Assembly (NCBI RefSeq): GCF_013364155.1
Contig: NZ_CP054916.1
Location: 5,205,001 to 5,269,000 of the forward strand
DNA: 64,000 bases
Direction of reading: 5' to 3'
From: Streptomyces sp. NA02950
GTDB lineage: Bacteria > Actinomycetota > Actinomycetes > Streptomycetales > Streptomycetaceae
Part shown: positions 10,846 to 60,092 of the stretch, piece after piece
Layout: each line of letters begins with the position of its first letter
How positions within the stretch are numbered: the stretch's first letter is position 1
Notes under the pieces: generated by a model
The model's input: only the letters and a program-made list of their open reading frames with translations
Told to the model about the DNA's origin: nothing
The model's database searches: none
Made by a program: the position numbers and the translations under genes

Positions 10846-11062
10846 CTCCGTACCGGGCGGCCGTCGAGGTGCGGGGTGGCCGTCGAGGTGCGGAGCAGCC
10901 GTCGACGGTAGCCGTCCGGCGCGCATCCGGTACAGCGCGATACGCATTCTTCGATATGCGTTTCTCGGCGATTTCAAGTTTTTCATGCGCCCCTGGGGCC
11001 GTTCCCGAAGCTCCGTAGGGTTGGGCCCGATCGATGAGCCTACCCAATCGAGGTGAATGGCA
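10846..11062 (+). promoter_or_regulatory. Upstream region of the NRPS operon
   Basis: Non-coding stretch that must carry the NRPS promoter. It has two copies of GGCCGTCGAGGTGCGG (10859-10874 and 10878-10893) and a partial third copy near 10896. An inverted repeat ACGCAT-N8-ATGCGT lies at 10942-10961 and overlaps a GATATG that could be a -10 element (10953-10958). No good -35 is visible, which suits a promoter that needs an activator. The ribosome site GAGGTGA is at 11050-11056. Confidence 0.4.
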
Positions 11063-14000
11063 ATGGCCGATCAGAATGGTCCCCATGTGCCGCTGACGGC
11101 CGCCCAGTCCGGAATGTGGCTCGCCCAGCAGGTGAATCCGGACAACCCGATGTACAGCATCGCCGAATGCGTCGAGATATCCGGTCCGGTCGACACCGTG
11201 CTGTTCGAGGCCGCGCTGCGGCGCACCGTGGACGAGGCCGACACCCTGCGGCTGCGGTTCGTGCCCGGTGCCGAGGGTCCGCGCCAGATCGTCCAGGAGG
11301 CCGTGGACTGGCCGCTGCACACGCTCGATGTGAGCGGCGCTGCCGATCCCTCCGCGGAGGCGGAGGCGTGGATGCTCGCGCGGGTGGCGGCCCCGGTGGA
11401 TCTCTCCGCGGGGCCGCTGTTCACGTTCGGGCTGATCACCCTGGCCGAGGACCGGTACACCTGGTTCAGCCGGGTGCACCACGCCATCGTGGACGGCTAC
11501 AGCTGGTCGCTGATCGTGGCCCGGGTCGCCGAGGTGTACACCGCGCTGGTGGCCGGGGACGAGCCGTCGCCCGACCGGTTCGGGTCGGTGCGTGAGCTGG
11601 TGGCCCAGGACCTGGCCTACCGGGAGTCCGAACGGTTCGCCGAGGACCGGGAGTTCTGGACCGGCCGACTGGCGGGTCTCGGCGAGCCGGTCAGCCTGGC
11701 GCCGCGGCCGGACCGGGTGCCCACCGACCATGTGCGGCTGGCCGGGGAGGTGCCCGCCAAGACCGCCGACGGCCTGCGCGCGCTGGGCCGGGAGACCGGG
11801 GTGAGCTGGCCGGCCGTGACGGTCGCCGCCATCGCCGCCTATCTGCACCGGCTCACCGGCGCCACCGATGTGGTGCTGGGCCTTGCCGTGGCCGCCCGCC
11901 CCGACCCGGCCGCCCGGAGGACCCCCGGGATGGTCTCCAACGCGCTGCCGCTGCGGACCGAGGTCGGCCCGGACACCACCGTGGCCGCGCTGCTCACTTC
12001 GGTCAGCCGCGAACTCCACCAGGTGCTGCGCCATCAGCGCTACCGCTACGAGGACGTGCACCGCGATCTGCGCCGGGTGGGGACGCGCAAGCGGCTGTGG
12101 GGCCCGGAGATCAACCTCATCATGTACGGCACCCCGCTGACCTTCGCGGGCCGCCCCTCGACCGTGCGCGGCTTCTCCATCGGCCCGGAGGAGGATCTGT
12201 CGCTGGTGGTCGACAACCGGGAGCCGGGCGACGGCTTCCTCGTCGACTTCCACGCCAACGCCGATCTGTACGACCACGACGCGGTCGCGGACCACCGGCA
12301 GCGGCTGGTGGACTTCCTCGCCACCCTGGCCGACGCCGCGCCCGGGGACACCGTCGGCGCACTCGAACTGCCGCTGCCCGAGGGCTGGATCGCGCCGGTG
12401 GCCGCGTCCGCCCCGGCGCCCGCCGAGGAGGCCGTACGGGCGCCGTACCGCGCCCCGCGCACCCCGCGCGAACGGACCCTGTGCGCCCTGGTCGCCGAGG
12501 TGCTGAAGGCCGAACGCATCGGCCTGGACGACGACTTCTTCGAACGCGGCGGCCATTCGCTCTCCGCCATCCGGCTGCTCGGCCGGATCCGCGAGACCCT
12601 GGGCGCCGAGCTGTCGGTGCGCACCGTCTTCGAGGCGCCGACCGTGGCCCGGCTGGTGACCCGGATCGAGGGTGCCGACGGCGCCCGTACCGCCCTGGCG
12701 CCGATGGCGCGCCCCGCCGAGCTTCCGCTGTCGCTCACCCAGCAGCGGCTGTGGTTCATGAACCGGCTCCAAGCTCCCACCGGCGCCTACAACATGGGGC
12801 TCGCGCTGCGGCTGTCCGGGCGGCTGGACCGGCCGGCGCTGGGGCGGGCGCTGTCCGATGTGCTGGCCCGCCACGAGAGCCTGCGCACCTGTTTCCCGGA
12901 CACCGACGGGCGCCCGCGGCAGCACGTCCTCAGCCCCGCCGAGGCGGATGCCCGGGTGGTGCTGTCGGTCACCGAGGTGACCGAGGACGCGCTCGACGCC
13001 ACCGTGGCCGCCGTGGTGGCCGAGGGCTTCGACCTGGCGGCCGGACCGCCGGTACGGCCCCGGCTGCTGGTGCTCGGCCCCGAGGAGCACGTACTGCTGG
13101 TGGTGCTGCACCACATCGTCGCCGACGGGCTCTCGCTCGCCCCGCTCGCCCGCGATCTGGGCCGGGCGTACACCGCGCGGGCGGCGGGCGCCGCACCCGA
13201 TCTCCCGCCGCTCGCGGTCCAGTACGCCGACTACACCCTGTGGCAGCACACCGTGCTCGGCAGCGAGGACAGCACCGACAGCGCCGACAGCCCGCTCGGC
13301 CGCCAGCTCGCGTACTGGAAGCGGACCCTGGAGGGGCTGCCGGAGGAGCTGTCGCTGCCGGCCGACCGGCCCCGGCCGCCGGGCTTGAGCCAGCGCGGGG
13401 ACATCGTGCGGTTCGCCGTCGGCGCCGGACTCCGGACCCGGCTCGCGGAGCTCGCCCGCGCCCACGGCGCCAGTCTGTTCATGGTCTTCCAGAGCGCGGT
13501 GGCCGTGCTGCTGAACAAGCTGGGCGCGGGCGAGGACATCCCGCTGGGCAGCGCGGTGGCCGGGCGCACCGATCCGGCGCTGGACGATCTCATCGGCTGC
13601 TTCGTGAACACCGTGGTGTTCCGCAACGACCTCACCGGCGACCCGAGCTTCGCCGAACTCCTCGGCCGTTCCCGGGAGATGGCGCTCGCCGCCCACGCCC
13701 ATCAGGACGTGCCGTTCGAGCGGCTGGTGGAGGCGCTCAACCCGGAGCGCTCCCTGTCCCGGAACCCGCTGTTCCAGGTGATGATGGATGTGCAGACGCC
13801 GTCCGAATCCACCCTGGAACTCCCGGGGCTGACCGCCACCCCGCAGCAGGTCGACCCCGGAGTCACCAAGATCGACCTGCTGTTCGGCCTGGACGAACGG
13901 GCCGCCGACCAGGGCGCCGCCACCGGGATCGACGGACGGCTGGAGTACGCCACCGATCTGTTCGACCGCGACACCGTCGAGCGGATGGCCGACCGGTTCG

Positions 14001-17000
14001 TACGGCTGCTGGACGCGGTGACCGCCGACCCCGACCGCCCGCTCAGCGCCATCGGACTGCTCACCGCCGCCGAGCGCGAACGGCTGCTGTACGGCGTCAA
14101 CCAGGCGCCCACCGTGACGCCCCGCGCGCTGCTCCCCGAGCTGTTCCAGACGCAGGCCGCCCGCACCCCGGACGCGCCCGCCCTGACCGAGGGCGCGCTG
14201 ACGTATCGCTACGCCGAGCTGAACGTACGCGCCAACCGGCTGGCCCACGAGCTGATCGCGCGCGGCGCCGGACCCGAGCGGCTGGTGGGCGTGGTGCTGC
14301 CGCGCTCGGCCGATCTGGTGGTGGCGCTGCTCGCGGTGGTCAAGTCGGGCGCCGCGTACGTCCCGGTGGACCCCGACTACCCGGCCGAGCGCATCGCCTT
14401 CATGCTCGCGGACGCGGATCCGGCGCTGGTGCTCACCGCCCCCTCCGCCGCCGGAGCCGTACCCGACGGGCTGCCGGTGCTCGACATCACGCGCGCCGCG
14501 GGCACGGTGGAGCGGGACCCGACCGACACCGACCGCCGCGCCCCGCTGGCCGCCGACCACCCCGCGTACGTCATCTACACCTCCGGCTCCACCGGCCGCC
14601 CCAAGGGCGTGGTGGTGGCCCACCGCTCGGTGGCGGTGTACCTCGGCTACGCGCGCGAGCGGTACCCGTCGGTGGCGGAGAGCGCGCTGCTGCACTCACC
14701 GGTCTCCTTCGACCTGACCGTCACCGCGCTCTACGCGCCGCTGATCAGCGGCGGTTGTGTGCGGGTCGGCGCGCTGGAGGGGCCGGGCGACGGTGCGCCC
14801 CGGCCCGGCTTCCTCAAGGCCACCCCGTCCCACCTGGGGCTGCTCGGAGTGCTTCCCGAGGAGTTCTCGCCCACCGGTGAACTGGTCGTCGGCGGCGAGA
14901 TGCTGCTCGGCGAGGTGGTGGCGCGGTGGCGGGAGCAGCGGCCCGGCGCCACCGTCGTCAACGAGTACGGACCCACCGAGGCCACCGTCGGCTGTGTCGA
15001 GCACCGCATCGGTCCCGAGGAGGAGATACCCGCCGGACCGGTGCCGATCGGCCGCCCGATGTGGAACTCGGCGGTCTATGTGCTGGACGGGGCGCTGCGG
15101 CCGGTGCCGCCCGGGGTGCCCGGCGAGCTGTACATCGCGGGCGGCCAGCTCGCCCGCGGCTATCTGGGCCGGCCGGGGCTGACCGCCGAACGGTTCGTCG
15201 CCGACCCGTACGGCGCCCCCGGCGCCCGGATGTACCGCTCCGGCGATCTGGCCCGCAGGCGGCCGGACGGCGTGCTGGACTACCTCGGCCGCGTCGACGA
15301 CCAGGTGAAGCTGCGCGGCTTCCGGATCGAACTCGGCGAGGTCGAGGCGGTGCTGCGGCGCCACCCGGGAGTGGCGCGGGCCGCGGTGGTGGTCCGCGAG
15401 GACCAGCCGGGGCTGCGCAGGCTCGTCGGCTACACGGTGCCCGAACCGGGCGCGGCGGTGGACGGGACGGCCCTGCGCGCCCACACCGCCGGGCTGCTGC
15501 CCGACTACATGGTGCCCAGCGCGTTCGTCGCCCTGCCGGAGCTGCCGCTCACCCCCAACGGCAAGCTGGACGCGCGGGCGCTGCCCGCCCCGGACACCGG
15601 AGCCTTCGGCCCCGACGGCGCTGACACGGAGCACCGGGCGCCGCGCGACGCCCGGGAGGAAGCGCTCGCCGGGCTGTTCGCCGAGGTGCTGGGCGTGGCG
15701 CGGGTCGGCCTCGACGACTCCTTCTTCGAGCTGGGCGGCGACAGCATCGTCTCCATCCAGCTCGTCGCCCGCGCCCGCCGGATGGGCCTGGACCTCGCCC
15801 CCAAGGACGTCTTCGAGCACAAGACGGTGGCCCGGATCGCCGCCGCGCTGCCGGCGGCCGGACCCGCCGCGGCCACCGCGTTGGAGGCGGCCGTGAGCGC
15901 CACCGGCGACCTCCCGGCCACCCCGGTGATGCGCTGGCTGGAGGAACGCGGCGGCCCCGGCGGCCCGTTCGCCGCCTTCCACCAGACCACCCTGACCCGG
16001 GTGCCGCCCGGCGCGGGCCACGACGACCGGTTCACCACCGCCCTCGCGGCCGTCCTGGACCACCACGACGCGCTGCGGATGCGCGCCCGGCGCGACGGGC
16101 GCGGCTGGACGTACCGGATCGCCGAACGCGGCGCCGTGGCCGCGCGCGACCTGGTCCGGCGGATCGACATGACCGGTCAGGACCCGGACGCGGTACGCGC
16201 CACCGTGGCCGAACAGGCCCGCGCGGCCTGGCGGCGGCTCGACCCGGAGGCCGGGGTGATGGCCCAGCTCGTCTGGTGCGACGCCGGGCCCGGTGCCCCC
16301 GGACGGCTGCTGTTCGCCGTCCACCACCTCGCGGTGGACGGGGTGTCCTGGCAGATCCTGCTCGAGGACCTGCGCACCGCCTGGGAGGCGGCGGGCGAGG
16401 GCCGTGCGCCCCAACTGCCGCCCGTCGGCACCCCGCTGCGCCACTGGGCCACCGCCCTGCGCGCACGCGCCACCGACGCCGTCCGCGCGGCCGAGAGCGG
16501 GATCTGGGCCGGGATCCTGCGGCAGCCCGCCCCCGGACTGGTGGACACCCCGCTCGACCCGGCCACCGACACCGCCGGAGCCGCCCGGCGGCTGACCATG
16601 ACCCTGCCCGCCGACCGCACCGAGCCACTGCTGACCAGCGTGCCGGCCGCCCTCCGCGCCACCGTGCACGAGGTGCTGGTCACCGCCTTCGCCCTCGCCG
16701 TCGCCGACTGGCGGGCGCGGCGCGGGGCGCCCGGCGGCCCCGGCGCCCTGATCGACCTGGAGGGCCACGGCCGCCAGGACCTCGGCGACGGCCTCGACCT
16801 GTCCCGTACCGTCGGCTGGTTCACCGATGTCCACCCCGCCCGGCTCGACCCGGGCGTGGCCGACGGCGACTGGGCCGGACTGTGGTCCGGCGGCGCGGCG
16901 GCCGGTGCGGCGCTGCGCACCGTCAAGGAGCAGCTGCGCGCCCTGCCCGGCGAGGGCATCGGCTACGGGCTGCTGCGCCGTCTCGACCCCGCCGCGGGCG

Positions 17001-17410
17001 CCCGGCTCGCCGGACTCGCCACCCCGCAGCTGCTCTTCAACTACCTGGGCCGCGCCGACGCGCCCGGATCCGGTGCGGCGGGCCACTGGAGCCCCGCCGC
17101 CGAGTCCGACGCCGTGCTCGGCGACGGCGACCCGCGTCAGCCCCTGTCGCACGTGGTGGAGCTGAACGCGGTGGCCCACCGGCATCCGGACGGCCACCGG
17201 CTGCTGGCCTCCTGGACCTGGCCGGGACGGCTGCTGTCCGACGCCGACATGCGTGAGCTGGCCGACGGCTGGTTCCGGGCCCTGCGCGCGCTGGCCGACC
17301 ACGCCGAGCGGCCGGAGGCGGGCGGCTACGCGCCGTCGGACCTGGCGCTGGTGGAGCTATCCCAAGACGAGATCGACGGCCTGGAAGCCGAGTGGAGGAC
17401 GCTGCAATGA
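11063..17410 (+). CDS. NRPS 1: modules 1-2 (C-T / C-A-T-E)
   Basis: A 2115-residue peptide synthetase. The order is: C (about 10-435, HHAIVDG at H139), T (about 467-540, Ser499 in GGHS), C (about 553-980, HHIVADG at H683), A (about 1025-1510), T (Ser1561 in GGDS) and E (about 1615-2090, HHLAVDG at H1754, EGHGR present). The first module has no A domain: C passes to T through a linker of about 30 residues. The first C domain looks like the C domain of EntF ([15 protein letters not shown]), as expected for N-acylation from a separate carrier protein. I chose ATG 11063 because GAGGTGA sits 6 bp upstream; ATG 11057 would abut that site. The E-domain end and the C-terminal tail [12 protein letters not shown] form a docking-type donor. 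The stop overlaps NRPS 2 by ATGA. Confidence 0.95.
11090..12690 (+). other. NRPS module 1: C-T, no A domain
   Basis: The C domain (11090-12360) has an intact HHxxxDG motif and EntF-like wording, so it is the likely acyl-accepting starter C. The T domain (12460-12680) has Ser499 in ERGGHS, the type found before LCL condensation domains. No A-domain core motif (YTSGSTG, YGPTE, YRTGD, NGKLD) lies between them. Residue 1 must be loaded in trans. Confidence 0.9.
12715..17330 (+). other. NRPS module 2: C-A-T-E, predicted D-Asn
   Basis: The C domain is LCL type ([16 protein letters not shown]), correct after a module without E. The ten-residue A-domain code, which I read by aligning to GrsA, is D-L-T-K-V-G-E-V-G-K, an Asn-type code (Glu at position 7 rather than the His usual for Asp). 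The T domain is GGDS and the E domain is intact. Confidence 0.8.
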
Positions 17411-20400
17411 CGAAGTCGGGCCCCGAGGACATCCTTCCCCTGTCGCCCCTTCAGGAGGGGCTGCTCTTCCATGCGCTGTACGACGAGAAGGGCCACGACG
17501 TCTACACCGTGCAGGTGGTGCTGGACCTCGGCGGGGCGCTGGAGGTGGCCGCGCTGCGGGAGAGCGCCGCGGCCCTGCTGCGCCGCCACGCCAATCTGCG
17601 CGTCGGCTTCCTGCACCCCAAACAGAGCCGTCCGGTGCAGGTGGTCTCCCGCGAGGTGGAGCTGCCGTGGGCGGAGGCCGACCTCGGCGGGCTCGGCGCG
17701 GAGAAGCGCGCCGCGGAGCTGGAGCGGTTGCAGAACGCCGAGAAGGCCCACGGCTTCGATCTGTCCCGGCCGCCGCTGATGCGGTTCCTGCTGGTGCGGC
17801 TCGGCGAGGGTGCGTACCGCTTCCTGTGCACCTTCCACCACATCCTGCTGGACGGCTGGTCCACCTCGGTGCTGCTGGGCGAGCTGTTCGAGCTCTACGG
17901 CCGCGGGGGCGACACCGCCGCGCTGCCCGCGGTCACCCCGTTCCGCACCCATCTGGCGTGGCTGGCAGGACAGGACGGCACCCGCGCCGAGAAGGTGTGG
18001 AAGCAGGCCCTGGAGGGCATCGACGCGCCCACCCGGCTGGCCCCGGCCGACCCGGGGCGCGCGGTCGTCCACCCCGAACAGCTCGCGCTGGAGCTGACGG
18101 AGGCGGAGACCGAGGCGCTGTCGGCCCGGCTGCGCGGCCGTGACCTCACCTTCTCCACCGCCGTGCACGGCGCCTGGGCGCTGCTGCTGGCCGCCCTGAC
18201 CGGCCGGGACGACGTCACCTTCGGCACGGTCGTCTCCGGCCGTCCGCCGGAGGTCGCGGGCGTGGAGCGGATGGTCGGCATGCTGATCAACACGCTGCCG
18301 GTACGGATGCGGATCACCCCGGGCACCCCGCTGGCCGACGCCCTCGCCGGGCTCCAGCGCGAACACATGGAGCTGATGCCGTTCCAGCACCTGGGGATGA
18401 GCGAGATCCACCGGCTGGCCGGACACAGCGAACTGTTCGACACCTATGTGGCGTTCGAGAACTTCCCCTTCGACCTGGAGTCGCTGCGCGCGCTCGCGGG
18501 CGAGCTGCGGATCGACGGTTTCGACGTCCTGGACGCCAACCACTATCCGCTGTGCCTGGTGGCGCATGTCTTCGAGGGACGGCTGCGGCTGGTGCTCAAC
18601 TACCGGCCCGACCTCTTCGCACGGGCCGATGTGGCGGTCGCGGGCGAGCGGCTGGTCCGCATCCTGCGCACGCTGATCGACGAGCCGGACCGTCCGGCCG
18701 GGCGGATCGCGCTGCTGTCCGAGGACGAGCGGCGGGAGCTCGGTGGCGGACGCACCACGGGCCGTGCGGTGGAACCGGTGACCTTCTGTGAGCTGTTCGC
18801 GGCGCAGGTGGGGCGGTCGCCGGACGCGGTGGCGGTGGAGTCGGCGGATGTGGCGTTGTCGTACGCGGGGTTGGCGGCGCGGGCGGACGCGTTGGCGGGT
18901 CGGCTGTCGGCGGCGGGGGTGGGGCCGGAGGATGTGGTGGCCCTGGTGCTGGGGCGTTCGGTGGAGTCGGTGGTGGCTTCGCTCGCGGTGATGCGGGCGG
19001 GGGCGGCGTATCTGCCGGTGGATCCGGACTATCCGGCGGAGCGGGTGGCGTTCATGCTGGACGATGCCCGTCCGGTGGTGGTGCTGACCACGGAGGCGTA
19101 CGCGGAGGTGGTGCCCGGGGGCCGGGCCGTGCTGATGGTCGACGGCACCGAGGCATCATCGGCCGCGCCCGTGCCGGTCCCCGTCGCGCTCGACGGTCCG
19201 GCGTATGTGATCTACACGTCCGGTTCCACCGGTGTGCCGAAGGGTGTGGTGGTCTCCCACCGTGGCATCGCGGCGTTCGCGGCGGCCGAGCGGGAGCGGT
19301 TCGCGGTGTCGGCGGACAGTCGGGTGTTGCAGTTCTCCTCGCCCAGTTTCGATGCCTCGGTGCTGGAACTGTGCATGACGCTGACGTCCGGTGCCACGCT
19401 GGTCGTTCCGGCCCCTGGACCGCTGGCGGGGGAACCGCTCGCCGAGGTGATCTCCGGCCGATGGGTGACCCATGCCCTGATCCCGCCCGCCGCGCTGGCG
19501 AGTGTCCCCGCCGGGTCGCTGCCGGACTTCCGCTGTCTGGTCGTGGGCGGGGAGGCGTGCCCGGCGGAGCTGGTGGAGCGCTGGGCGCCGGGCCGCCGGA
19601 TGGTGAACGCCTACGGTCCGACCGAGTCCACCGTCGCCGTGTCGATGAGCGAGCCGCTGACCGCGGGGACCGGAACGCCCCCGATCGGCACCCCGGTGCC
19701 CGGGACCCGGGCGTATGTGCTGGACGGTTCGCTGCGGCTGGCCCCGCCCGGAGTGGCCGGTGAACTGTATGTGGCGGGGCCGGGGTTGGCGCGTGGCTAT
19801 CTGCGGCGTGCGGCGCTGACGGCCGAGCGGTTCACCGCCGATCCCTACGGTCCGCCCGGGTCGCGGATGTACCGCACCGGGGATGTGGTGCGCCGGCGGG
19901 CCGACGGCCAGCTGGAGTTCGTCGGGCGCGCCGACGACCAGGTGAAGATCCGCGGCTTCCGGATCGAACTCGGCGAGATCGAGGCGGTGCTCGCCCGCCA
20001 CGAGGAGCTGGACGGCGCCGCCGTGGTCGTCCACGAGTCCCAGCCGGGCGTACGGCAGCTCGTGGCGTACGTCGTGCCCGCGCCGGGCCGTACCCCCGGG
20101 GCCGAGGCGCTGCGCGACCATGTCGCCGGGCTGCTGCCCGCGTACATGGTCCCGGCGCTGTTCATCCCGCTGGCCGCGCTGCCGCTCATGGTCAACGGCA
20201 AGCTGGACCGCAAGGCCCTGCCCGCCCCCGACCTCGGCTCGGACGACACCGGCCGGGAACCGGCCACCGACCGCGAGAAGCTGCTGTGCGCGCTCTTCGC
20301 CGAGGTGCTGGGGGTGGAGAAGGTCGGCGCCGACCAGTCCTTCTTCGAGCTGGGCGGCGACAGCATCGGCTCGATCCAGCTGATCAGCCGGGCGCGCAAG

Positions 20401-23400
20401 GCCGGGCTGCGGTTCAGCCCCCGCGACGTCTTCAGCCACAAGACGGTCGAGGCGCTGGCCCGGGTCGCCACCGAGGGCAAGGCGCCCGCGCGGCGCACCG
20501 CGCCCTCGGACGGGATCGGCGGGGTGCCGCTCACCCCGATCATCCACTGGTTCAGCGAACACGGCGGCCCGGTCGACGAGTTCAACCAGTCCATGCCCGT
20601 CCCGGTGCCGGCCGGTCTCGACGCCGAGCGCGTCGGCCAGGTGCTCCAGACCCTGCTGGACCACCACGACGCGCTGCGGCTGCGGCTGCACCGGATCGAG
20701 GACATCGGCGAGTGGACCCTCGAGGTCGCCCCGCGCGGTGCGGTGCGCGCCGAGGACTGTCTGCGCCGGGTGGACACCGCCGGTCTCGGCGCAGACGCCC
20801 TGCCGGCGCTGACCGCCGAGGAGTTCGGCGCGGCGCAGGCCCGGCTGGCACCCGGCGAGGGCCGGATGGTGCAGGCCGTGTGGTGCGACGCGGGCCCGGC
20901 CGAGCCGGGGCGGCTGCTGCTGGTGATCCACCACTTGGCCGTGGACGGCGTTTCCTGGCGCATTCTGCTGCCCGAACTGACCGCCGCCCTGGAGGCCGCC
21001 GCCGCGGGCCGCCGCTTCGTCCCGGAGCCGGTGGGCACCTCGTTCCGCGCTTGGGCGCGGGCGCTGACGGCCGCCGCCTCCGAACCGGAGCGGATGCGTG
21101 AGATGCCGCTGTGGCGCGAGGTGCTGGGCGGCGGTGATCCGGCGCTGACCGCACGCCCGCTGGACCCGGCCCGGGACACCCTCGCCACCGCCGGACACCT
21201 CACCCTGCGGCTGCCCGCCGAGGTGACCGAACCGCTGCTGGGCCGGGTGCCGGCCGCGTTCCGCGCCGAGGTCAACGACGTACTGCTGACCGCGCTGGCG
21301 CTGGCCGTGGCCGACTGGCGGCGCCGCCACGGACGCGGTGACACTTCCTCGGTGCTGGTCGGCCTCGAGGGCCACGGCCGGGAGGAGATCGTGCCGGGCG
21401 TCGATCTGTCCCGTACGGTCGGCTGGTTCACCAGCCTCTATCCGGTGCGTCTCGACCCGGGGTCGCTGTCCCGCGAGCAGAGGGCGGCGGCGGGCCCGGA
21501 GCTGGCCGGGGCGCTGAAGCGGGTCAAGGAGCAGCTGCGGGCGGTTCCGGACCACGGGATCGGCTACGGACTGCTGCGCTATCTCAACCCGCGCACCGCC
21601 GTGACCCTGGCGAAGTACGCCGAACCGCAGATCGGCTTCAACTACCTCGGCCGGATCGGCACCGCCGACGGCGCGGACGGTTCCGGGGACGGCCTCGGCG
21701 GTGGCGCCGGCGCGGCCACCCCGCTGCCGTACGCGCTCACCGTCAACGCCGTCACCGAGACCCACCCCGACGGCCCCCGGCTGTCGGCCACCTGGACCTG
21801 GCCGGGCGAACTGCTCACCGAGGACGAGGTGGCGGAGGTGGCGCGGGCGTGGTTCGACGCGCTTCAGGCGCTGGTCGCGCACGCCGACCGGCCCGGTGGC
21901 GGTGGGCTCAGCCCGTCGGACCTGCCGCTGGTCGAGCTGGACCAGGAGGAGATCGACCGGCTCGCCGCCGCCCAGCCCGGCCTCGCCGATGTGCTGCCGC
22001 TCTCCCCGCTCCAGGAGGGGCTGCTCTTCCACACCGCGTACGACCAGGACGCCGAGGACGTCTACATCACCCGGCTCGCCGTCGATGTGACCGGCCGCCT
22101 GGACACCGGTGCGCTGCGCGCCGCGGTGAGCGGACTGCTGCGCCGCCATGACACCCTGCGCGCCGGTTTCCACCGCACCGCCGACGGACGGCCGCTCCAG
22201 CTGATCCCGCACGAGGCCGCACTGCCCTGGAACGAAATCGACCTGAGCGGGCTCGGCGAGGACGAACGCACCGCCGAACTGGACCGGCTGCTGCACGCCG
22301 AGCGGGCCCACCGCTTCGACCCGGAGCTGCCGCCACTGCTGCGCTTCACCCTGATCCGGCTGGCCGAGGACGCCCACCGGCTGCTGTTCGCCGCCCACCA
22401 TCTGCTGCTGGACGGCTGGTCGGCACCGGTGCTGGCGGGTGAGCTGTTCGCGCTGTACGGAAGCGGGGGCGAGGACACGGTGCTGCCGCCGGTCGTCCCG
22501 TACCGCGACTATCTGGCCTGGCTGGCTCGGCAGGACCGGGGCGCCGCCGAGGACGCCTGGCGTACCGCGCTGGCCGGGGTGGACGGGCCGACGCTGGTGG
22601 CGCCGGACGCCACGGGCCGGGCGGCGGTGCTGCCGGGACGGATCACCGATGAGCTGCCCGCGGAGCTGACCGCCGCGCTGGGCGCGCTCGCCCGCCGCCA
22701 CGGGCTGACCATGAACGCGGTGGTGCAGGGCGCCTGGGGGCTGGTGCTGGCCGGGCTGACCGGCCGGGACGATGTGCTGTTCGGCGAGACCGTCTCGGGC
22801 CGTCCGCCGGAGCTGCCGGGCGTGGAGTCCATGGTGGGGCTGTTCAGCAACACGGTGCCGGTGCGGGTGCGGGTCGACCCGGCCGCCTCGCTGCTGGACA
22901 CCCTGGTGCGGGTCCAGGAGGGGCGGGTCGGACTGCTGGCCCACCACTACCTGGGTCTTGCCGACCTCCAGCGGCTGACCGGCCTCGGCACGCTGTTCGA
23001 CACCGCCGTCGTCTTCGAGAACTATCCCTCAAACGGCGCGGACGGCGCGGACGGCGCCGGAGGACCGGTGCACGGGCTGACCCTGACCGAGGTCGACACC
23101 AAGGGCGACAACCACTATCCGCTGGGCGTGGTGGTGATGCGGGACGAGCGCCGGATGGCGCTGCACTGGTACCACCGTCCCGATCTGATCGAGGCGGACA
23201 CCGCCACCGCCATCACCGTGCGGATGCGGCGGCTGCTGGAGACGATCGCCGCCACCCCCGAACTGCCCGTCGGCCGCGTCGATCTGCTCGGTGAGGAGGA
23301 GCGGGCCCGGCTGGAGTCCCAGTGGGCCGGTCCTGAACTCCCGGCCTCCGACCGGACGCTGCCGGAGCTGTTCGAGGCGCAGGTGTCCCGTACCCCGGAC

Positions 23401-29400: not shown

Positions 29401-32400
29401 GCGGCCGTTCCCACCCCGCCCGGCGCCCCGGACACCCCGCTGCCGTACGCGCTCGACATCGAGTGGGCGGTCACCGGCGGCGGGGAGCCGACCGCCCGCT
29501 GGACCTGGGCGGGCGAGCTGCTGGCCGGGACGGACGTCCGGGAGCTGGCCGACGGCTGGCGGGCCGCCCTGGCCGCGCTGGCCTCGGGCACCGGCGCCGG
29601 TGGCCGCACCCCGTCCGACTTCCCGCTGGTCTCCCTGACCCAGGCGGAGGTGGACACCCTGGAGCGCGACCACCCGGATCTGGTGGAGGTACTGCCGCTG
29701 GCCCCGCTCCAGGAGGGGCTGCTCTTCCACTCCCTCTACAGCGACACCGAACTGGACGTCTACACCGTGCAGTTCGGGCTGGACCTGGAGGGGGAGCCCG
29801 ACCCGGGCGCGCTGCGGGCGGCCGTGGCGGGCCTGCTGCGCCGCCATCCGAACCTGCGCGCCGGATTCGCCCACGACGGACTGGCCCAGCCGGTGCAGAT
29901 CGTCCTGGCCGAGGGCGAACTGCCCTGGTCCGAACGGGATCTGAGCGCGGTGCCCGAGGAGGAGCGCGGCGCCGAACTGGCCCGGGTGATGGCCGGGGAC
30001 CGCGCCCACCGCTTCGACCCGGCCCGGCCGCCGCTGTTGCGCTGCACCCTGGTGCGGCTGGCCACCGGCCGTCACCGGCTGGTGCTGACCTGGCACCATC
30101 TGCTGCTCGACGGCTGGTCCACCCCGGTGCTGCTGGACGAGCTGATGCGGCTGTACGCGGCGGAGGGCGACGGCTCGGGGCTGCCCCCGGCCCGCCCGTA
30201 CCGCGACTACCTGCGCTGGCTCACCGACCGGGACCGGGAGGCCACCCGGGCCGCCTGGCGCCGGGAGCTGTCGGGTCTCGCCGGGCCCACCCTGCTGGCG
30301 CCCGCCGACCCGGACCGGCCGCCGGTGATGACGGAGAAGGTCTCCGCCAACATGCCGCGCGCGCTGGTGTCCGCGCTCACCGCCACCGCCCAGCGGCACG
30401 GGGTCACGATGAACACCGTCGTCCAGGCCGCGTGGGGGCTGCTGCTCAGCCGGATCACCGGCTCCGGGGACGTGGTCTTCGGCACCACGGTGGCCGGACG
30501 GCCGCCCCAGGTGGCGGGCGTCGAGCGGATGGTGGGGCTGTTCATCAACACCGTCCCGGTGCGGGTCCGGATCGATCCGGCCGAACCGCTGGAGGCGCTG
30601 CTGCGCCGGCTGTGGGAGCGGCAGACCGAGCTGATGCCGCATGAGCACATCCGGCTGGTGGAGCTGCGCCGCGAGACCGGCCACGGCGAACTCTTCGACA
30701 CGTTGCTGGTGTTCCAGAACGTGCCCGCCGACGGCGCCGGGTTCGGCGGCGAGGACGACGGCCGGGTGCGCGCGGTGGACCTGGAGATGAACGACGCCAC
30801 CCACTACCCGCTCACCCTGGACGCCGGTCTCGACGGCACCGAGCTGCACTGCCGACTCGGCTACCGCCCCGACCTGTTCACCGCCACCGAGATCGCCGGA
30901 CTGATGGCCGCGCTGCGCGGGGTTCTGGCGGCCATGGCCGAGGCCCCCGGCAGCCCGGTCGGCGAGCTCGGCGACGACGCGCCCGCCCGCTGGTGGGCGT
31001 CGGTGCGCCCGGCGCTCGAAGCGCGCGCCCGCACCGGCGGCGACGACCCGGCCGGGGCCGGGGAGGGCACCGGCGGCTCCCGCGAGGAGCTGCTCACCAC
31101 GCTCTTCCGCGAGGTGCTGGGCGTCGAGGAGGTCGGTCCCGACGATGACTTCTTCGAGCTGGGCGGCGACAGCATCGTCTCCATCCAGCTCGCCGGCAAG
31201 GCCCGTAAGGCCGGGCTGCTGATCAGTCTGCGGGAGGTGTTCCGGCACAAGACGGTACGGGCGCTGGCGCGGGTCGCCCGCGAGGAGACGGCCGCCGCCC
31301 CCGCCGAGGCCCCCGAGGACGCCCTCGGCGAACTGCCGCTCACCCCGGTGATGCTGGACCTGTACGAGCGCGGCGGGCCCACCGGCACCGTGCACCAGGC
31401 CAGTCTGGTCCAGGTGCCCGCGGACTGCTCGGAGAGCCTGCTCGCCGCCGCCCTCCAGGCCGTCCTGGACCACCACGACATGCTGCGGGCGAAGCTGCTG
31501 CCCGCGGGTGGCGGGGCCGGGCCGCGGCTGGAGGTCGCCCCCAAGGGCGCGGTGGAGGCCGCCCGGCTGATCAGCCGGGCGGACATCGCCGGGGTGGCGC
31601 CGTCCGCGCTGATCGAGCGGGTGGCGGCGGAACAGGTCCGGGTCCAGGGCGAACTGTCGCCGGAGGACGGGGAGCTGGTGCGGGCCGTGTGGTTCGACGC
31701 CGGACGCGACCGCCCGGGCCGGCTGCTGCTCGTCGTGCACCACCTGGCCGTCGACGGGGTGTCCTGGCGGGTCCTCCAGGAGGACCTGGAGGCCGCCTGG
31801 CAGTCGGTGACCGCCGGTGAGGACGTCCGGCTCGCGCCGGTGGGCACCTCCTTCCGCCGCTGGGCGCGGCTGCTGGCCGAGGAGGCCACGGCCGGGAAGC
31901 GCGGCGGAGAGCCGGAGCTGTGGCGTTCGGTGCTGGCCACCGACGATCCGGCGCTCGCGGACCGCCCGCTGGACCCGGCCCGCGATGTGGTGGGCAGCGC
32001 CCGCAGCTTCACCGTGACCCTGCCGGGCGAGGTGGCCGAACCGCTGCTCGGCCGGGTGCCCGCCGCCTTCAACGCCGGAGTGGACGACGTCCTGCTGACC
32101 GGCCTGGCGCTGGCCGTCGCCCGCCGGCGGCGGGAACGCGGCCGCGGCGAGGGCTCGGCGCTGCTGGTCGGACTGGAGGGCCACGGCCGCGAGGAGATCG
32201 CGGACGGCGTCGATCTGTCCCGTACGGTCGGCTGGTTCACCAGCCTGTACCCGGTCGCCGTCGACCCCGGACCGGTGTCCGAGGAGGAGCTGCGCACCGG
32301 GGGACCGGCCCTGGGCACCGCGCTGAAGGCGGTCAAGGAGCAGCTGCGCGCCCTGCCCGACAAGGGCCTCGGCTACGGGCTGCTGCGCCATCTGCACCCG

Positions 32401-32817
32401 GAGCACGGCCCGGAGCTGGCCGCGCTCGCCGCACCGCAGATCGGGTTCAACTACCTCGGCCGGTTCGCGGCCGTGGACCCCGAAGAGGTGCGCGCCGAGG
32501 ACTGGGCGGCGCCCCCGGAGGCCGTCGAGACCCTGGGCTCCGGAGCCGATCCGGCCCTGCCCCTGGCCCACGCGATCGGCGTCAGCGCCGTCGCCCAGGA
32601 CCGCCCCGACGGGGTGCGTCTGGTGGCCATCTGGTCCTGGCCGGGCGAACTGCTGGCGGAGGACGAGGTCCGCCGGGTGGCCGACTACTGGTTCGAGGCG
32701 CTGAGCGCCCTGGTCACGCACGCCGAACGCCCCGAGGCGGGCGGCTTCACCCCGTCCGACCTCTCCCTGCTGTCGCTGTCGCAGGACGAGATCGACGCGT
32801 TCGAGAGTGGGCTTTAG
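17407..32817 (+). CDS. NRPS 2: modules 3-6 (C-A-T-E / C-A-T / C-A-T-E* / C-T-E)
   Basis: A 5136-residue synthetase. Module 3 is C (H144 in HHILLDG), A (Y603 in YTSGSTG), T (Ser986) and E. Module 4 is C, A, T (Ser2529, GGNS). Module 5 is C, A, T (Ser3588) and an E-like domain with its motif changed to HQLAADP (from H3774) and EGHGR changed to VAADGR. Module 6 is C, T (Ser4589) and E (H4778-H4779 intact), with no A domain. The T-domain type (GGDS before E, GGNS before LCL) and C-domain type ([13 protein letters not shown] after [13 protein letters not shown] after plain T) agree throughout. ATG 17407 overlaps the NRPS 1 stop and has GGAGG at 17394-17398. The C-terminal [18 protein letters not shown] is a typical post-E docking segment for NRPS 3. 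Confidence 0.95.
17431..21950 (+). other. NRPS module 3: C-A-T-E, unassigned hydrophobic D-residue
   Basis: DCL-type C domain following the module 2 E domain. The A code is D-A-L-L-V-G-A-V-A-K, which I cannot assign with confidence; a hydrophobic pocket is likely. The A domain is almost identical in DNA to that of module 9. The E domain is intact ([16 protein letters not shown]). Confidence 0.85.
18758..19983 (+). repeat. A-domain DNA repeat, copy 1 (module 3)
   Basis: About 1.2 kb, almost identical to 42005-43230 (constant offset of 23,247 bp). It covers the A domain from before [10 protein letters not shown] to IELGEIE. One clearly divergent patch lies at about 19449-19519, plus an isolated change near 19379. 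Flanking C and T domains are not identical, so the match is confined to the A core. Confidence 0.92.
21985..25110 (+). other. NRPS module 4: C-A-T, unassigned (Asx-like code)
   Basis: DCL-type C domain after an active E. The A code is D-L-T-K-L-G-V-V-N-K. The DLTK start and Lys at position 4 recall Asp/Asn activators, but V and N at positions 7 and 9 differ, so the residue may be a related polar amino acid. The T domain is GGNS, with no E. Confidence 0.8.
25150..29640 (+). other. NRPS module 5: C-A-T-E* with a degenerate epimerisation domain
   Basis: LCL-type C. The A code is D-V-A-Q-G-G-A-V-A-K, unassigned. The T domain is GGDS. The E-like domain (28318-29640) keeps the fold landmarks ([24 protein letters not shown]) but lost the His-His and Asp-Gly of HHxxxDG (now HQLAADP, 28726-28746) and the Glu-containing EGHGR (VAADGR at 29149). 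It should be inactive. Confidence 0.85.
29683..32770 (+). other. NRPS module 6: C-T-E, no A domain
   Basis: DCL-type C ([21 protein letters not shown]). It passes directly by a Gly/Ala-rich linker (about 30960-31075) to T (GGDS, Ser4589) and an intact E domain. No A-domain motif is present. The residue must be loaded in trans and then turned into the D form. Confidence 0.9.
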
Positions 32818-32838
32818 CTGATGAAAGGACACAGCGAA

Positions 32839-35800
32839 GTGACGAAGCCGGGCTTCGTGGACGTGTGGCCGCTGTCCCCGCTCCAGAAGGGCATGCTGTT
32901 CCACGCCCTGTACGAGGAGCACAGCGCGGATGTCTATGTCATCCAGATGGCTCTCGACCTGCGCCGGGACGTGGACGCCGGGCTGCTGCGCGGCGCCGTG
33001 GGGACGGTGCTCGCGCGCCATGACAACCTGCGGGCCAGTTTCCGCAACCGCACCAGCGGCGAACCGGTGCAGGTGATCCTGCGCGAGGCCGAACCCGACT
33101 GGGCCGAACACGATCTGCGCGGGGTGGCCGGGGCGGACCGGGAGGCGGAACTCGCCCGGCTGCTGGCGGACGACCGTACCCGGCGGTTCGACCTGGCCCG
33201 GCCGCCGCTGCGGTTCTCGCTGGTGCGGCTGGCCGACGCCGAGTACCGGTTTGTGTTCACCGCCCATCACATCCTGCTGGACGGCTGGTCCATGCCGCTG
33301 GTGCTGGGCGAACTGATGGCGCTGTACACCAGCGGCGGGGACGCCTCGGCGCTGCCGCCGGTCGCCCCGTACCGCGACTACCTGGCCTGGCTGGCCCGGC
33401 AGGACCGGGCCGAGGCGGAGGAGACGTGGCGGCGCGCGCTGGCCGGTCTGGACGGGCCTACGCTGGTGGCGCCGCCCGACCCGGCGCGCGGCCCCGCGCT
33501 GCCCGCGACGCTGATCGAGGAGGTGGACGCGGAGCTGGCGGCCGGACTGGCCCGCCGGGCCCGCGCCCACGGGCTGACGCTCAACAGCGTGGTGCAGACC
33601 GCGTGGGGGCTGGTGCTGGCCGGGCTGACCGGCCGGGACGACGTGGTGTTCGGCGAGACCGTCTCCGGCCGCCCGCCGGAGCTGCCGGGTGTGGAGTCCA
33701 TGGTCGGGCTGTTCATCAACACCCTGCCGGTGCGGCTGCGGATCGACCCGGAGCGTTCGCTCGCCGAGCTGGCGCGCGGGCTCCAGGACCAGCAGAGCGA
33801 ACTCATCGCCGCCAAGCACCTGGGGCTTGCCGAGATCCAGCAACTGGTGGGCGGCGGGGAGCTGTTCGACGCCATCACCATCTTCGCCAACTATCCGATC
33901 GACACCGACACCCTGAAGAACTCCGCCGAGGGCATCGGGGCCGTCGCCGCCACCACGGTGGACGCCACCCACTACACCCTCAACCTGGAGGGCACGGTCC
34001 GCGGGGAGCGGATGACGGTCCGGCTGGACCACCGGCCGGACCTGTTCGCGGACGGCGCCGGACGGGAGATCCTGGACCGCTTCCTCGCCGTCCTGGCCGC
34101 GTTCGCCGCCGACCCCGGGCGGCCCGCCGGATCGGTGCCCGCCTTCACCCCCGAGGACCGGGCCCGGCTGGTGACCGCGAGGCCCGCCACCACCCGGGAG
34201 CCCGTGGCGGAGGCGTCCGGCGGCGCGCCGCGCACCGAGCGCGAGACGGCGCTGTGCGCGCTCTTCGCCGAGGTGCTGGGTGTGGCCCCGGTCGGGGTCC
34301 ACGACAGCTTCTTCGAACTGGGCGGGGACAGCATCTCCTCCATCCAGCTCGCCCACCGCGCCCGCAAGGAGGGCGTCGAGATCACCCTGCGGGAGATCTT
34401 CGAGCACCGTACGGTGGCCCGGCTCGCCGCCCTCGACCACGGCCCCCGGCAGCCCGCCGTGACCGCCGAGGACGGGGTGGGCGCCGTCGTGCCCACTCCG
34501 ATCATGCGCTGGCAGCAGGCCAGGGGCGGCCCGGTCGACGCCTTCAACCAGACCATGACCCTGCCGGTGCCGGCCGGGCTCGCACTGGAACAGGTCCGGG
34601 CCGCCGTCCAGGCGCTGCTGGACCGGCACGACGCGCTGCGGCTGCGGCTGGCCCGCACCCCCGGCGCCGACTGGGCGCTCACCGTGGACCCGGTGGGCGC
34701 CGTCCGGGCCGAGGACTGCGTACGCCGCGCCGGGAACCCGGACGACGAGGAGGAGCTGCGGGTCGCGATGCGGCGGCTGGCGCCCGAGGACGGCCGGATG
34801 CTCCAGGCCGTCTGGTACGACGCCGGGGCCGCCCCGGGACGGCTCACCGTGATCGCCCACCACCTGGTGGTCGACGGGGTGTCCTGGCGGGTGCTGCTGC
34901 CCGATCTGGAGGCGGCTCTGGACGCGCTCACCGACGGCAAGACCCCCGAACTGGAGCCGGTGGGCACCTCGTTCCGCCGCTGGACGCAGCTGCTGGCCGA
35001 GAACGCCACCGCGCCCGGCCGCGTCGCCGAACTGGACCTGTGGCGCGCCATCGCCGCCACGGACGACCCCGCGCTCACCGACCGCCCGCTGGACCCGGCC
35101 CGCGATGTGGTGGGCGCCGCCCGGCAGTTGACGCTCACCCTGCCCGCCGAGGTGGCCGAACCGCTGCTGGGCCAGGTGCCCGCCGCGTACCACGCCGGGA
35201 TCAACGAGGTGCTGCTCACCGGTCTCGCACTGGCCGTCGCCCGCTGGCGGCGCGAACGCGGCCGGGGCGACGGCTCCGCGGTGCTGGTGGGCCTCGAGGG
35301 CCACGGCCGCGAGGAGATCGCCGAGGGCATCGACCTGTCCCGTACGGTCGGCTGGTTCACCAGCCTGTTCCCGGTGGCCCTCGACCCCGGCACGCTGCCG
35401 GAGGACGAGCTGTGGACCGGCGGCCGGGCGCTGGACACCGCGCTGAAGACCGTCAAGGAGCAGCTGCGCGCCATCCCCGACAAGGGCCTCGGCTACGGGC
35501 TGCTGCGCCATCTCAACCCCGCCACCGGACCGGAGCTGGCCGCCTTCGCCGAACCCCAGATCGGCTTCAACTACCTGGGCCGGATGGGCGAGGCCGACGC
35601 CGAGGACGCCGCCGCCGCCGACACCGTGGCGGTGCGCGACCTCACCGGCGCGGGCGACCCCGCCATGCCGCTCGGCTATCCCCTGGAGGTCAACGCCGCG
35701 GCCCTGGCCTACCCCGACGGGCAGCGGCTGGTGGCCTCCTGGACCTTCTCCGCGGAACTGCTCACCGAGGAGGAGGTCGGCGAGGTCGCCCGGATGTGGT

Positions 35801-38800
35801 TCGACGCGCTGCGCGCCCTGGCCACCGCCGCGACCCGGCCCGACGCGGGCGGGCTCACCCCCTCCGACCTGCCACTGGTGACCGTCGGCCAGGACGAGAT
35901 CGACCGGCTGGCGGCGGCGCCCGGCGGACTCGCCGACCTCCTGCCGCTCTCCCCGCTCCAGCAGGGGCTGCTGTTCCACTCCGTCTACGACGAGTCCGCG
36001 CCGGACGTCTACACCATCCAGTCCGCCCTGGAGCTCCACGGCCCCCTGGACGGCGCGCGGCTGCGCGCCGCCACCCGCACCTTGCTGCGCCGCCACGGCA
36101 ATCTGCGCGCCGCCTTCGTCACCTCCGCCTCCGGCATGTCCCTCCAGGTCGTGCCGCGCGAGGCCGAGGTGCCCTGGGCCGAGGTGGACCTGAGCGGGCT
36201 GGACGAGGAGGCGCGGCGGACCGAACTGGACCGGCTGCTGGCCGCCGACCGCGCCGAGCGGTTCGATCTCACCGCGCCGCCGCTGCTGCGCTGCACCCTG
36301 GTCCGGCTCGGCACCGACCGGCACCGCTTCGTGCTCACCGTGCACCACATCGCGGTGGACGGCTGGTCGATGCCGCTGCTCATCGGGGAGCTGTTCGAGC
36401 TGTACGGCCGGGGCGGCGACGACACCGCACTGCCCCCGGCCGTTCCGTACCGCGACTATCTGGCCTGGCTGGCCGCACAGGACCGGCAGGTGTCCGAGGA
36501 CGCCTGGCGGACCGCGCTCGACGGCGTCACCGAGCCGACCCTGCTGGTGTCCGGCGCCCCCGCGGACCGCGCCCCCGCCGCGCCCGAGCGGTGGACCCAG
36601 GAGCTGCCCGCGGAGCTGAGCCAGGGGCTGCTCGCCGCCGCCCGCGAACACGGGCTGACCGTCAACACCGTGGTGCAGGCCGCGTGGGGGGTGGTGCTCG
36701 GCGCGCTCACCGGCCGTGAGGACGTGGTGTTCGGCTCGACGGTCTCCGGGCGCCCGCCGGAGCTGCCCGGTGTGGAGTCCATGGTCGGGCTGTTCATCAA
36801 CACCCTGCCGGTGCGGGTGGACACCCGGCCCGGGGAGAACCTCGCCGGGATGGCCGGCCGGCTCCAGTCCCGGCAGTCGGGGTTGCTGGCCCACCAGTAC
36901 CTGGGCCTGGCCGACCTCCAGAGGCTCACCGGCACCGGGGAACTCTTCGACACCCTGGTGGTGTTCGAGAACTATCCGGTGGACGCCGAGACCCTGGAGT
37001 CCACCGCCCGCGACCTCGGGGTCGTCGACGCCGACGTCCGGGACGCGGTGCACTACCCGCTGGGGCTGCTGGCCGCCCAGCGCGGTGACGCGCTGTCGCT
37101 GACCTGGTCCCACCGCCCCGATCTGCTGGACGCGGCCGCCGTACGGACCCTGGCCGGGCGCTACCGGCGGGTGCTGGAGGCGTTCGCCGCCGACCCCACC
37201 ACACCCGTGGGCAGGCTCGATCTGAGCACCGAGGACGAGCGGGCGCCGCGGCGGGCCGCGGCCGACGCGGCGGACGGCGCGGCCGAGGACGAGCCGCACA
37301 CCCTCACCGAGGTCTTCGAGACCGCCGCCGCGGCCACCCCGGACGCCACCGCCGTGGTGTGCGGGGACACCGCGCTGAGCTACGCCGAACTGAACGCGCG
37401 CGCCAACCGGCTGGCCCACCAGCTGATCGACCGTGGCGCCGGGCCCGAGCGGCTGGTGGCGCTCGCGCTGCCGCGCTCGGCCGAGACGATCGTGGCGCTG
37501 CTGGCCGTCCTCAAGGCGGGCGCGGCCTATCTGCCGCTGGACCCGGACTACCCGGCCGACCGCCTCGCGTACATGGTCGGCGACGCGGCGCCCGCGCTGG
37601 TGCTCACCGCCACCGGAGCCGGCCCGGCCGCGGTACCCGAGGGGGTGCCGGTGCTGGCCCTGGACGACCCGGCCGTACGGGAGGAGCTGGCCGGGCGGCC
37701 GGAGACCGACCCCACCGACGCCGACCGGACGGCCGCGCTCACCCCCGACGCCCCGGCGTACGTCATCTACACCTCGGGCTCGACCGGCCGCCCCAAGGGC
37801 GTCGTGGTCCCGCACCGCAACGCCGTGCGGCTGTTCACCGCCACCGACCACTGGTTCGGCTTCGGCCCCGACGACGTGTGGACCATGTTCCACTCCTACG
37901 CCTTCGACTTCTCGGTGTGGGAGATCTGGGGCCCGCTGCTGCACGGCGGACGGCTGGTGGTGGTCGACCACACCGTCAGCCGTTCCCCCGAGGCGTTCCT
38001 CGAACTGCTGGTCCGCGAGCGGGTCACGGTGCTCAGCCAGACCCCGTCCGCCTTCTACCAGCTGATGGCCGCCGACCGGGAGCACCCCGGACTCGGCCGC
38101 CGACTGGCCCTGCGCACCGTCGTCTTCGGCGGTGAGGCACTGGACCCGTGGCGCCTGGCGGAGTGGTACGAGCGGCACGGCGACGACGCGCCGCGGCTGG
38201 TCAACATGTACGGGATCACCGAGACCACCGTGCACGTCAGCCATGCCGCCCTGGACCGGGCGGGCGCGGCCGCCGCGACCGGCAGTGTCATCGGCGAGGC
38301 CATCCCCGATCTGCGGGTGCAGGTCCTGGACCCGGCACTGCGGCCCGTACTGCCCGGCGCGCCCGGCGAGATGTACATCTCCGGCGCGGGTCTCGCCCGC
38401 GGCTACCTCGGGCGCCCGGCGCTCACCGCGGGCCGCTTCGTCGCCGACCCCTTCGGCCCGCCCGGCGGCCGGATGTACCGCTCGGGCGACCTGGCCCGCC
38501 GGGGCCCGGACGGACGGCTGGAGTACCTGGGGCGCGCCGACGACCAGGTGAAGATCCGCGGCTTCCGGATCGAACCGGGCGAGATCGAGGCCGTGCTCGC
38601 CGGGCATCCGGCGGTCGGGCAGGTGGCGGTGCGGGTCCGCGAGGACCGGCCGGGCCACCGGCTGCTGGCCGCCTATGTGGTGCCCGCGCCGGGCGCCGCG
38701 GCGGACGGGGGCGAGCTGCGCGAACACGCCGCCGCCGCGCTGCCGGACCATATGGTCCCCGCGGCCTTCGTCACCCTCGACGCGCTGCCGCTGACCGTCA

Positions 38801-53819: not shown

Positions 53820-54203
53820 GCCCACGCTCACCGCCGTGCCGAGGTCGGACGGACCGATGAGCCGGCGGCGGACATCTACGCATCCTCCGGCGCCATCGAC
53901 CCCGCCGCGGCCCGCGCCGCCATCGCGAACTTGGCCGCCCCGGTGCTGGTACTCGCAGGTGAACTGGACAGCGGCCCGCGCCCCCGGGTCGCCGCCGGCA
54001 TCGCGTCGTTGTTCCGCCATGCCGAACTGACCGTCCAGCCGGGCGCCGGCCACCACCCACGGCTGGACGTCCCCGTCCGCTTCACACGGACCGTCGCCGC
54101 CTTCCTCACCCGCTGGGCCCTGGTGGGGATCCGCGGTGCGGGGCACGGCGAGAGCGGCGAGGGCCGCCGTGGCCGGGGGCCGTGCCCGCGGTCAGGCGGA
54201 TGA
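53820..54203 (+). pseudogene. C-terminal remnant of an alpha/beta hydrolase
   Basis: One frame reads GAIDPAAARAAIANLAAPVLVLAGELD and then GAGHHPRLDVPVRFTRTVAAFL. This is the usual end of an alpha/beta hydrolase: the acid residue in AGELD and the catalytic His in GHHP. The N-terminal half with the nucleophile elbow is absent, and stop codons precede the piece at about 53808. No credible start is present, so I read it as a decayed gene. Only the sequence pattern supports this. Confidence 0.5.
54141..54187. terminator. Possible hairpin terminator next to the type II TE gene
   Basis: Arms GGGCACGGC (54141-54149) and GCCGTGCCC (54179-54187) with an internal GC-rich stem. It begins 5 bp beyond the stop of the leftward TE gene. 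Confidence 0.35.
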
Positions 54204-60056: not shown

Positions 60057-60092
60057 ATCCGGAAACGACCCCTGGAACCGAAGGAGACTGCG

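Follow-up and report, generated by a model that had tools for sequence, protein, structure and literature searches.

Modules lacking adenylation domains

The DNA considered here is a 64,000-nucleotide stretch of Streptomyces sp. NA02950 (NZ_CP054916.1, positions 5,205,001 to 5,269,000 of the forward strand; 'the window', with coordinates counted from its first letter), and its subject is a nonribosomal peptide synthetase (NRPS) assembly line encoded by three plus-strand genes. By domain searches, with C, A, T and E standing for condensation, adenylation, thiolation (carrier) and epimerization domains, NRPS 1 (11057..17410, 2117 aa) consists of C1-T1 and C2-A2-T2-E2. NRPS 2 (17392..32817, 5141 aa) continues with C3-A3-T3-E3, C4-A4-T4, C5-A5-T5-E5 and C6-T6-E6, and NRPS 3 (32821..47784, 4987 aa) completes the line with C7-T7-E7, C8-A8-T8-E8, C9-A9-T9 and C10-A10-T10-TE, the terminal thioesterase (TE) being assigned by sequence reading and a GWSMG motif alone. 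The ten modules have seven A domains between them, and in modules 1, 6 and 7 the C domain is joined straight to the T domain. A model given the letters alone had described the line in just these terms (the original prediction), and domain searches, hidden Markov model (HMM) comparison and motif scanning agree with it. Genome searching finds seven A-domain family matches in the window, every one inside the NRPS line, and scanning for the A-domain core motif A3 counts one in NRPS 1, three in NRPS 2 and three in NRPS 3. The HHxxxDG motif is present in all ten C domains and in E2, E3, E6, E7 and E8; it is lost in E5, an additional E-like domain carried by module 5 (about 28435-29586, within NRPS 2).

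The linkers that stand where A domains would be expected have coordinates, computed from residue numbers, of 12371..12478 in module 1 (NRPS 1 residues 439-474), 30970..31092 in module 6 (NRPS 2 residues 4527-4567) and 34162..34251 in module 7 (NRPS 3 residues 448-477), all on the plus strand. Between domain borders they measure 36, 41 and 30 residues, in keeping with the roughly 25-60 first estimated, and the range in nine relatives is 29-65. The carrier serines are intact, as had been claimed, and so are the C motifs of these modules and the E motifs of E6 and E7. The positions given for the serines (499, 4589 and 498) were off by 2-6, the actual ones, counted from the open reading frame (ORF) starts used in this analysis, being 501 (T1), 4594 (T6) and 504 (T7). 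Is there an A domain concealed in these linkers? Such structure, named in advance as the finding that would count against the original prediction, was sought with an A-domain HMM run without filters, and over the 30 linkers of ten lines the best score was 1.2 bits, no trace of an A domain; together with the A3 motif counts this rules out a hidden or frame-shifted A domain there.

For conservation, C1-T1 of module 1 was searched in 18 genomes (two pairs of handles being the same genome) picked for relatives of SA, the stand-alone protein described below. Near full-length matches, at 66-93%, occur in ten distinct genomes of the 18; S. griseus NCTC 13033, with its match at a contig end, was excluded, leaving the whole lines of NEAU-Y11, S465, S. 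antioxidans, S. sindenensis, S. parvus, G-G2, A012304, McG3 and CB03234. These are not independent of one another, S. sindenensis and S. parvus for instance being near copies. All nine have the same module order and the same A-less modules 1, 6 and 7, with NRPS 3 of A012304 broken by a frame break in E7. This rules out recent decay, and also a sequencing gap, so that the claim of the original prediction that the missing domains were no artefact is borne out. With A012304 left out, mean identity to the eight relatives is 76% for T1, 73% for T6 and 77% for T7, and 75-84% for the remaining T domains. In a sample of 295 genomes of the genus, C1-T1 at 67% or above is found in three including that of the window, the other two carrying SA at 75-76%, and three more (G018, G166 and G177) match at 45-46%, their module 1 likewise being A-less.

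A stand-alone A-T gene and its cassette

Downstream of the line, at 55887..63815 on the plus strand, are ketosynthase, 4HBT, FabA-like and SDR genes of cinnamoyl type, and then a DsbA-like gene (63812-64528) that extends beyond the window end and whose product is taken to be an isomerase. On the strength of these ketosynthase, 4HBT, FabA-like, SDR and DsbA-like genes at 55887-64528 the cluster is, by gene content, of the cinnamoyl-peptide (CCNP) type: a type II polyketide synthase set of ketosynthases, dehydratase, SDR and isomerase-like protein adjoins the NRPS, the set being interpreted after an extract of PMC9381841.

A search for stand-alone A genes just outside the window had been suggested with the original prediction, and one is there, in the same cluster, 525 bases past the end. 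SA (64525-66909 in window coordinates, L002:1525-3909, plus strand; 794 aa) has two C-domain pieces (a partial C), an A domain (at C1:5270164) and a T domain. The part before the A domain is ~210 residues, its C-domain pieces scoring 37.9 and 42.6 bits, and the motifs read FTSGSTGEPKG (A3), NGKID (A10) and GGTS (T). The genome has 121 A-domain family matches; the nearest downstream of SA is ~96 kb off and the nearest upstream of the line >250 kb off. After SA come, in order, TauD2 (a TauD-type dioxygenase), SbnB, SbnA and phosphoglycerate dehydrogenase. SbnA and SbnB exceed their NCBI cut-offs for the synthesis of 2,3-diaminopropionate (TIGR03944, 412.9 bits against 326.9; TIGR03945, 378.5 against 349.95), and phosphoglycerate dehydrogenase exceeds its own.

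The SA pocket code, DIWQSTADDK, is shared by 108/111 rows or, leaving out the window's own two rows and duplicates, by 99 of 102 distinct homologs, which include one Rokuibacteriota and two Acidobacteria records. The gene company is likewise conserved: of the 60 loci of at least 21 kb among the best 80 SA loci, counting genes at a minimum of 50% identity, TauD2 is found in 58, SbnB in 58, SbnA in 56 and a cinnamoyl ketosynthase in 11. A domain survey of the best 120 of 4127 SA homologs has 43 at 67% identity or more, 29 of them fused to a TauD domain and none with a thioesterase domain; among the remaining 77 there is no TauD fusion and, by manual count, 45 have a thioesterase domain. The fusions in relatives suggest that TauD2 acts on a residue held by SA. 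From the SbnA and SbnB neighbours and the two aspartates in the pocket code, we infer that this residue is of diaminopropionate type. Coprisamides C and D are reportedly cinnamoyl peptides with diaminopropionate. The iron sites of TauD2 (HHE) and of TauD1, a dioxygenase upstream of the line (HNE), read as the HxE type and not as the halogenase type, which is without the acidic ligand.

Condensation and carrier domains

The C domains sort by what precedes them. C2, C5 and C10, downstream of E-less modules, form one group at 54-58% identity, and C3, C4, C6, C7, C8 and C9 form another at 47-62%, with C7 and C8 coming after E6 and E7; C1 is apart from both. From the place of C2 beside C5 and C10, T1 is expected to bear an L-aminoacyl residue and not merely an acyl starter, and overall the C-domain types fit a chain of ten residues passing working modules.

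Among carrier domains, T6 and T7 share two columns (A versus I/V; L versus A/P) that separate them from T2, T3, T5 and T8 across nine lines, the other 14 pairs of E-linked T domains having 0-1 such columns in a test devised after the pattern had been noticed. A mark common to T1, T6 and T7 was sought and is absent; only T6 and T7 share columns.

As to E5, it is without HHxxxDG in 9/10 Streptomyces lines, the motif being kept in CB03234 and in the Saccharothrix line described next, and the C domain after it still clusters with C domains that come after E domains.

Outgroup, intermediates and control clusters

A line in Saccharothrix, with three proteins 54-61% identical in best alignments, has modules 6 and 7 A-less and in module 1 an A-like stretch without the A3 motif, A8 and A10 likewise being absent by sequence reading. 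In another line (G226) the last module is A-less and module 4 has a 195-residue A remnant from which the first part of the domain is gone and in which VGR replaces the expected NGK. A five-module line (G254) has a single A-less module, its last, and the last module is also A-less in L036 and L037, where the stretches read cover the ends of the lines. The SA relatives of these lines have identities of 74% (G226), 70-71% (G254, L036 and L037) and 59% (Saccharothrix). The number of gaps thus appears to vary while the loader clade stays constant (three here, one in G254), and Saccharothrix module 1 and G226 module 4 look like A-domain loss seen midway.

Ten control clusters were chosen by a ketosynthase resembling that of the window, such a ketosynthase being matched in 71/295 genomes, and in none of the ten, at 80 kb each, is there an SA-clade protein, SbnA, SbnB or TauD2. 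Four (G210, G169, G273 and G019) have the plan of the WS9326A cluster, with a single C-T module lacking A and a pair of stand-alone A-T proteins. The loader codes, DFWSVGMVHK and DLTKVGEVGK (the second in 3/4 proteins read), agree with what is expected of the WS9326A loaders for Thr and Asn. One (G164) has neither an A-less module nor a separate A-T that could be seen; three (G092, G095 and G037) have no A-less module visible in lines only partly covered; and in two (G126 and G088) no NRPS line was seen, G126 having a lone A-domain protein.

Two observations on other loaders stand apart. The cinnamoyl-type lines of G018, G177 and G166 (L154-L156; L161-L165) are of another sort, with module 1 A-less; in G018 and G177 a distinct A-T loader, its code of Thr type, lies alongside, and G166 is cut off. 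The loaders of the four clusters of WS9326A plan have N-terminal extensions of about 390 aa with a weak C-profile match, the later piece scoring 1.7-20.5 bits, and a C domain in decay may be a feature that trans loaders have in common.

The pocket codes of modules 2 and 8 in the window are those of the WS9326A-plan loaders (Asn- and Thr-type respectively), which suggests Asn at module 2 and Thr at module 8; that of module 4 we read as Asp. Across the ten Streptomyces lines the codes of modules 2 and 4 are invariant and that of module 3 nearly so, those of modules 5, 8, 9 and 10 varying. Positions 1, 6 and 7, if supplied by SA, would fall in the constant part of the peptide. The A domains of modules 3 (18796-19803) and 9 (42043-43050) are 91% identical, with long stretches letter-identical, and the module 9 codes vary among relatives; the module 9 domain looks like a recent copy of the module 3 domain in this lineage.

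Supply of residues 1, 6 and 7

What, then, charges three carriers that have no A domain beside them? Our preferred reading, put forward with slightly more confidence than doubt, is that SA stands in for the A domains absent from modules 1, 6 and 7 and provides a diaminopropionate-type residue to each, the product being a cinnamoyl-capped peptide of ten residues. O-phosphoserine, reached via phosphoglycerate dehydrogenase, would feed SbnA and SbnB to give L-2,3-diaminopropionate, which SA would activate and load onto its own T domain. TauD2 would oxidise the residue while it is on SA, whereupon it would be handed to T1, T6 and T7 by SA itself or via a transferase, with E6 and E7 converting the residues at 6 and 7 to the D form. 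The components differ in strength. Trans-loading by a free A domain, as originally predicted, is well supported, since this cluster and those of the relatives read each contain a conserved gene for a stand-alone A-T; a single A domain for modules 6 and 7, also part of that prediction, is likely; and that SA serves module 1 too is probable.

If a transferase is involved a candidate is TEII_a, an alpha/beta hydrolase (54192..54959, minus strand) that may be a shuttle or an editing enzyme. All nine relatives with three gaps carry it, as does S. griseus NCTC 13033; in the stretches read from lines with one or two gaps (G254, L036, L037 and G226) and from Saccharothrix it did not turn up. A shuttle role for it is possible. 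For a second hydrolase, TEII_b, a shuttle role confined to lines with gaps is unsupported: it also occurs in G164, whose modules show no missing A domain, and in G092, G095 and G037, whose partly covered lines show none either. Both hydrolases have GHSMG, which we take to hold the usual serine, the SyrC-type cysteine being in neither.

Several points count against SA as sole supplier of diaminopropionate to all three positions. The T domain of SA itself would demand an extra transfer step, and the candidate TEII_a has the usual serine and was not found in the Saccharothrix stretch. The diaminopropionate assignment derives from gene company, and that company is not constant: in the stretches read, L037 has SA and TauD2 with SbnA and SbnB not found, and L036 and G254 are without the full pair. 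The product of TauD2 is uncertain because beta-hydroxy-diaminopropionate, a hemiaminal, would be labile. In Saccharothrix E7 is without HHxxxDG, counter to two identical D residues there, and G092 has a 1012-aa A-T-like protein despite no visible gap in its partly covered line. None of the columns that set T6 and T7 apart extends to T1, and module 1 may be served by other means. Finally, although a stand-alone A-T accompanies all 21 lines in which a C-T was seen to be A-less or to hold the remains of an A domain (window, nine Streptomyces, Saccharothrix, G254, L036, L037, G226, G018, G177, G210, G169, G273 and G019), 14 of the 20 beyond the window's were reached via SA and so are partly selected for it; the six reached independently of SA (G018, G177, G210, G169, G273 and G019) also carry one.

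The lack of a mark shared by T1 with T6 and T7 also speaks for a mixed supply, in which SA loads some of the gapped modules and a neighbouring in-line A domain, used twice, charges another. There is precedent, for in an extract of PMC8949500 the second A domain of mannopeptimycin synthesis serves the next C-T-E module, in one of PMC12400406 CmnA-A1 charges CmnI, and yersiniabactin is a further case. Against this, SA is retained in the three-gap lines read, and the line of G254 has no gap except its last module, which would leave SA without any other use there; we regard mixed supply as unlikely, though not strikingly so. With 121 A-domain family matches in the genome, might one elsewhere load one or more of the modules while SA makes a separate free amino acid? 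The thioesterase of 45/77 distant relatives in the domain survey is as expected for release of a free product, but its absence from all 43 SA-clade proteins there, and the position of SA inside the cluster in relatives, make this improbable.

That the gapped modules are simply skipped to give a seven-residue product has in its favour the gaps themselves and nothing further, and against it the intact C, T and E motifs, conserved about like those of full modules, and C types that fit residues passing through 1, 6 and 7; it can be given very little credence. Hardly any more attaches to T1 holding the cinnamoyl group with module 1 contributing no residue. The missing A domain of module 1 would agree with such a role; against it, the unusual C domain that resembles a starter type is C1, which has HHxxxDG, and C2 is of ordinary type, like C5 and C10.

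Known systems and what is new

The original prediction pointed to SyrE and SyrB1 as an analogy, a loose one: the iron site of TauD2 is HxE and not of halogenase type, and neither hydrolase examined has a SyrC-like cysteine. In syringomycin synthesis, by an extract of PMC8949500, SyrB1/SyrC are the parts concerned, an A-T supplying the A-less module 9 of SyrE after modification on the loader; the modification there is a chlorination, and one module is served. Nearest in kind is WS9326A, also of the cinnamoyl-peptide family and with an A-less C-T module and stand-alone A-T; within the compass of an extract of PMC7539972 its trans A-PCP proteins, Cal22Thr and Cal23Asn, are encoded downstream and are essential by gene disruption. 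Mutants in the WS9326A loaders gave truncated products. WS9326A differs in having two A-T and one A-less module in contrast to one A-T and three A-less modules here, and its type of loader differs from SA in code, SA also having the diaminopropionate and dioxygenase cassette. In capreomycin synthesis CmnA-A1 charges the T domain of CmnI with diaminopropionate, as followed by mass spectrometry (PMC12400406, in extract), this A domain being in-line and serving two T domains, and the HMWP2 protein of yersiniabactin synthesis has one A domain for three carriers (PMC7539972, same extract), a cysteine A domain that is in-line with no separate loader protein. For ramoplanin, enduracidin and albicidin, stand-alone A-T proteins complement missing or inactive A domains in trans, and the N-terminal extension required in the ramoplanin loader is described as without known homology (PMC8949500, same extract). 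The extension of SA is a C-domain piece, and the two are likened by description, not by sequence.

Trans-acting A-T proteins are familiar from syringomycin, albicidin, ramoplanin and WS9326A, and an A domain shared by two or three carriers has precedents in capreomycin, mannopeptimycin and yersiniabactin. What appears new is a single stand-alone loader that would serve three A-less modules, together with its SbnA/SbnB-dioxygenase cassette. Searches of open-licence papers found no report that pairs three A-less modules with a lone loader protein, none of the SA cassette, and no paper for the pocket code DIWQSTADDK.

How might such a line have arisen? Tentatively, and with somewhat less than even confidence, a self-contained supply unit for an oxidised diaminopropionate residue, made up of loader, dioxygenase, SbnA and SbnB, may have been captured by peptide lines, A domains then being lost stepwise until one loader served three positions. 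The A remnants in Saccharothrix module 1 and G226 module 4 would show such loss in progress, and that distant SA relatives often end in a thioesterase, which would release the product, points to the unit being free-standing elsewhere. Because related lines offer A domains that are complete, broken or missing, a history in which an external supplier came first and A domains were then lost step by step could be tested directly. If one loader does serve three stations, one alteration of its pocket could change three residues together, and the features by which SA takes some T-domain surfaces and rejects others would amount to a natural code for trans-loading. Predicting the number of residues in this family of lines by counting only A domains would give too low a figure.

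Other genes of the cluster

Upstream of the line, TauD1 (8539..9507, plus strand) is a non-haem iron dioxygenase (Pfam PF02668), found upstream of the line in 9/9 relatives, partly pieced together from two fetched stretches, and it is followed by a cytochrome P450 gene (9515..10801, plus strand; Pfam PF00067) with 75-90% identity in all nine. Overlapping the start of TauD1 by 4 bases is the gene for a YD/RHS-repeat protein with a PA14 domain (4487-8542, plus strand; 1351 residues), odd company for a peptide cluster, that has a homolog in all nine relatives (54-84%, the match in A012304 being partial) and in Saccharothrix (41%). On the other side of the line, a 434-residue ORF (47808-49112, plus strand), membrane-protein-like by eye and with no Pfam or NCBIfam match, adjoins NRPS 3 here, in nine relatives (36-87%) and in Saccharothrix (42%). 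An MbtH-like helper protein is encoded at 55254..55538 (ORF bounds, plus strand), the MbtH motif being placed by motif scan at about 55.37 kb. The same genome holds a second cinnamoyl-type ketosynthase (G000:C1:5935330-5936538), 71% identical to that of the window and about 675 kb away.

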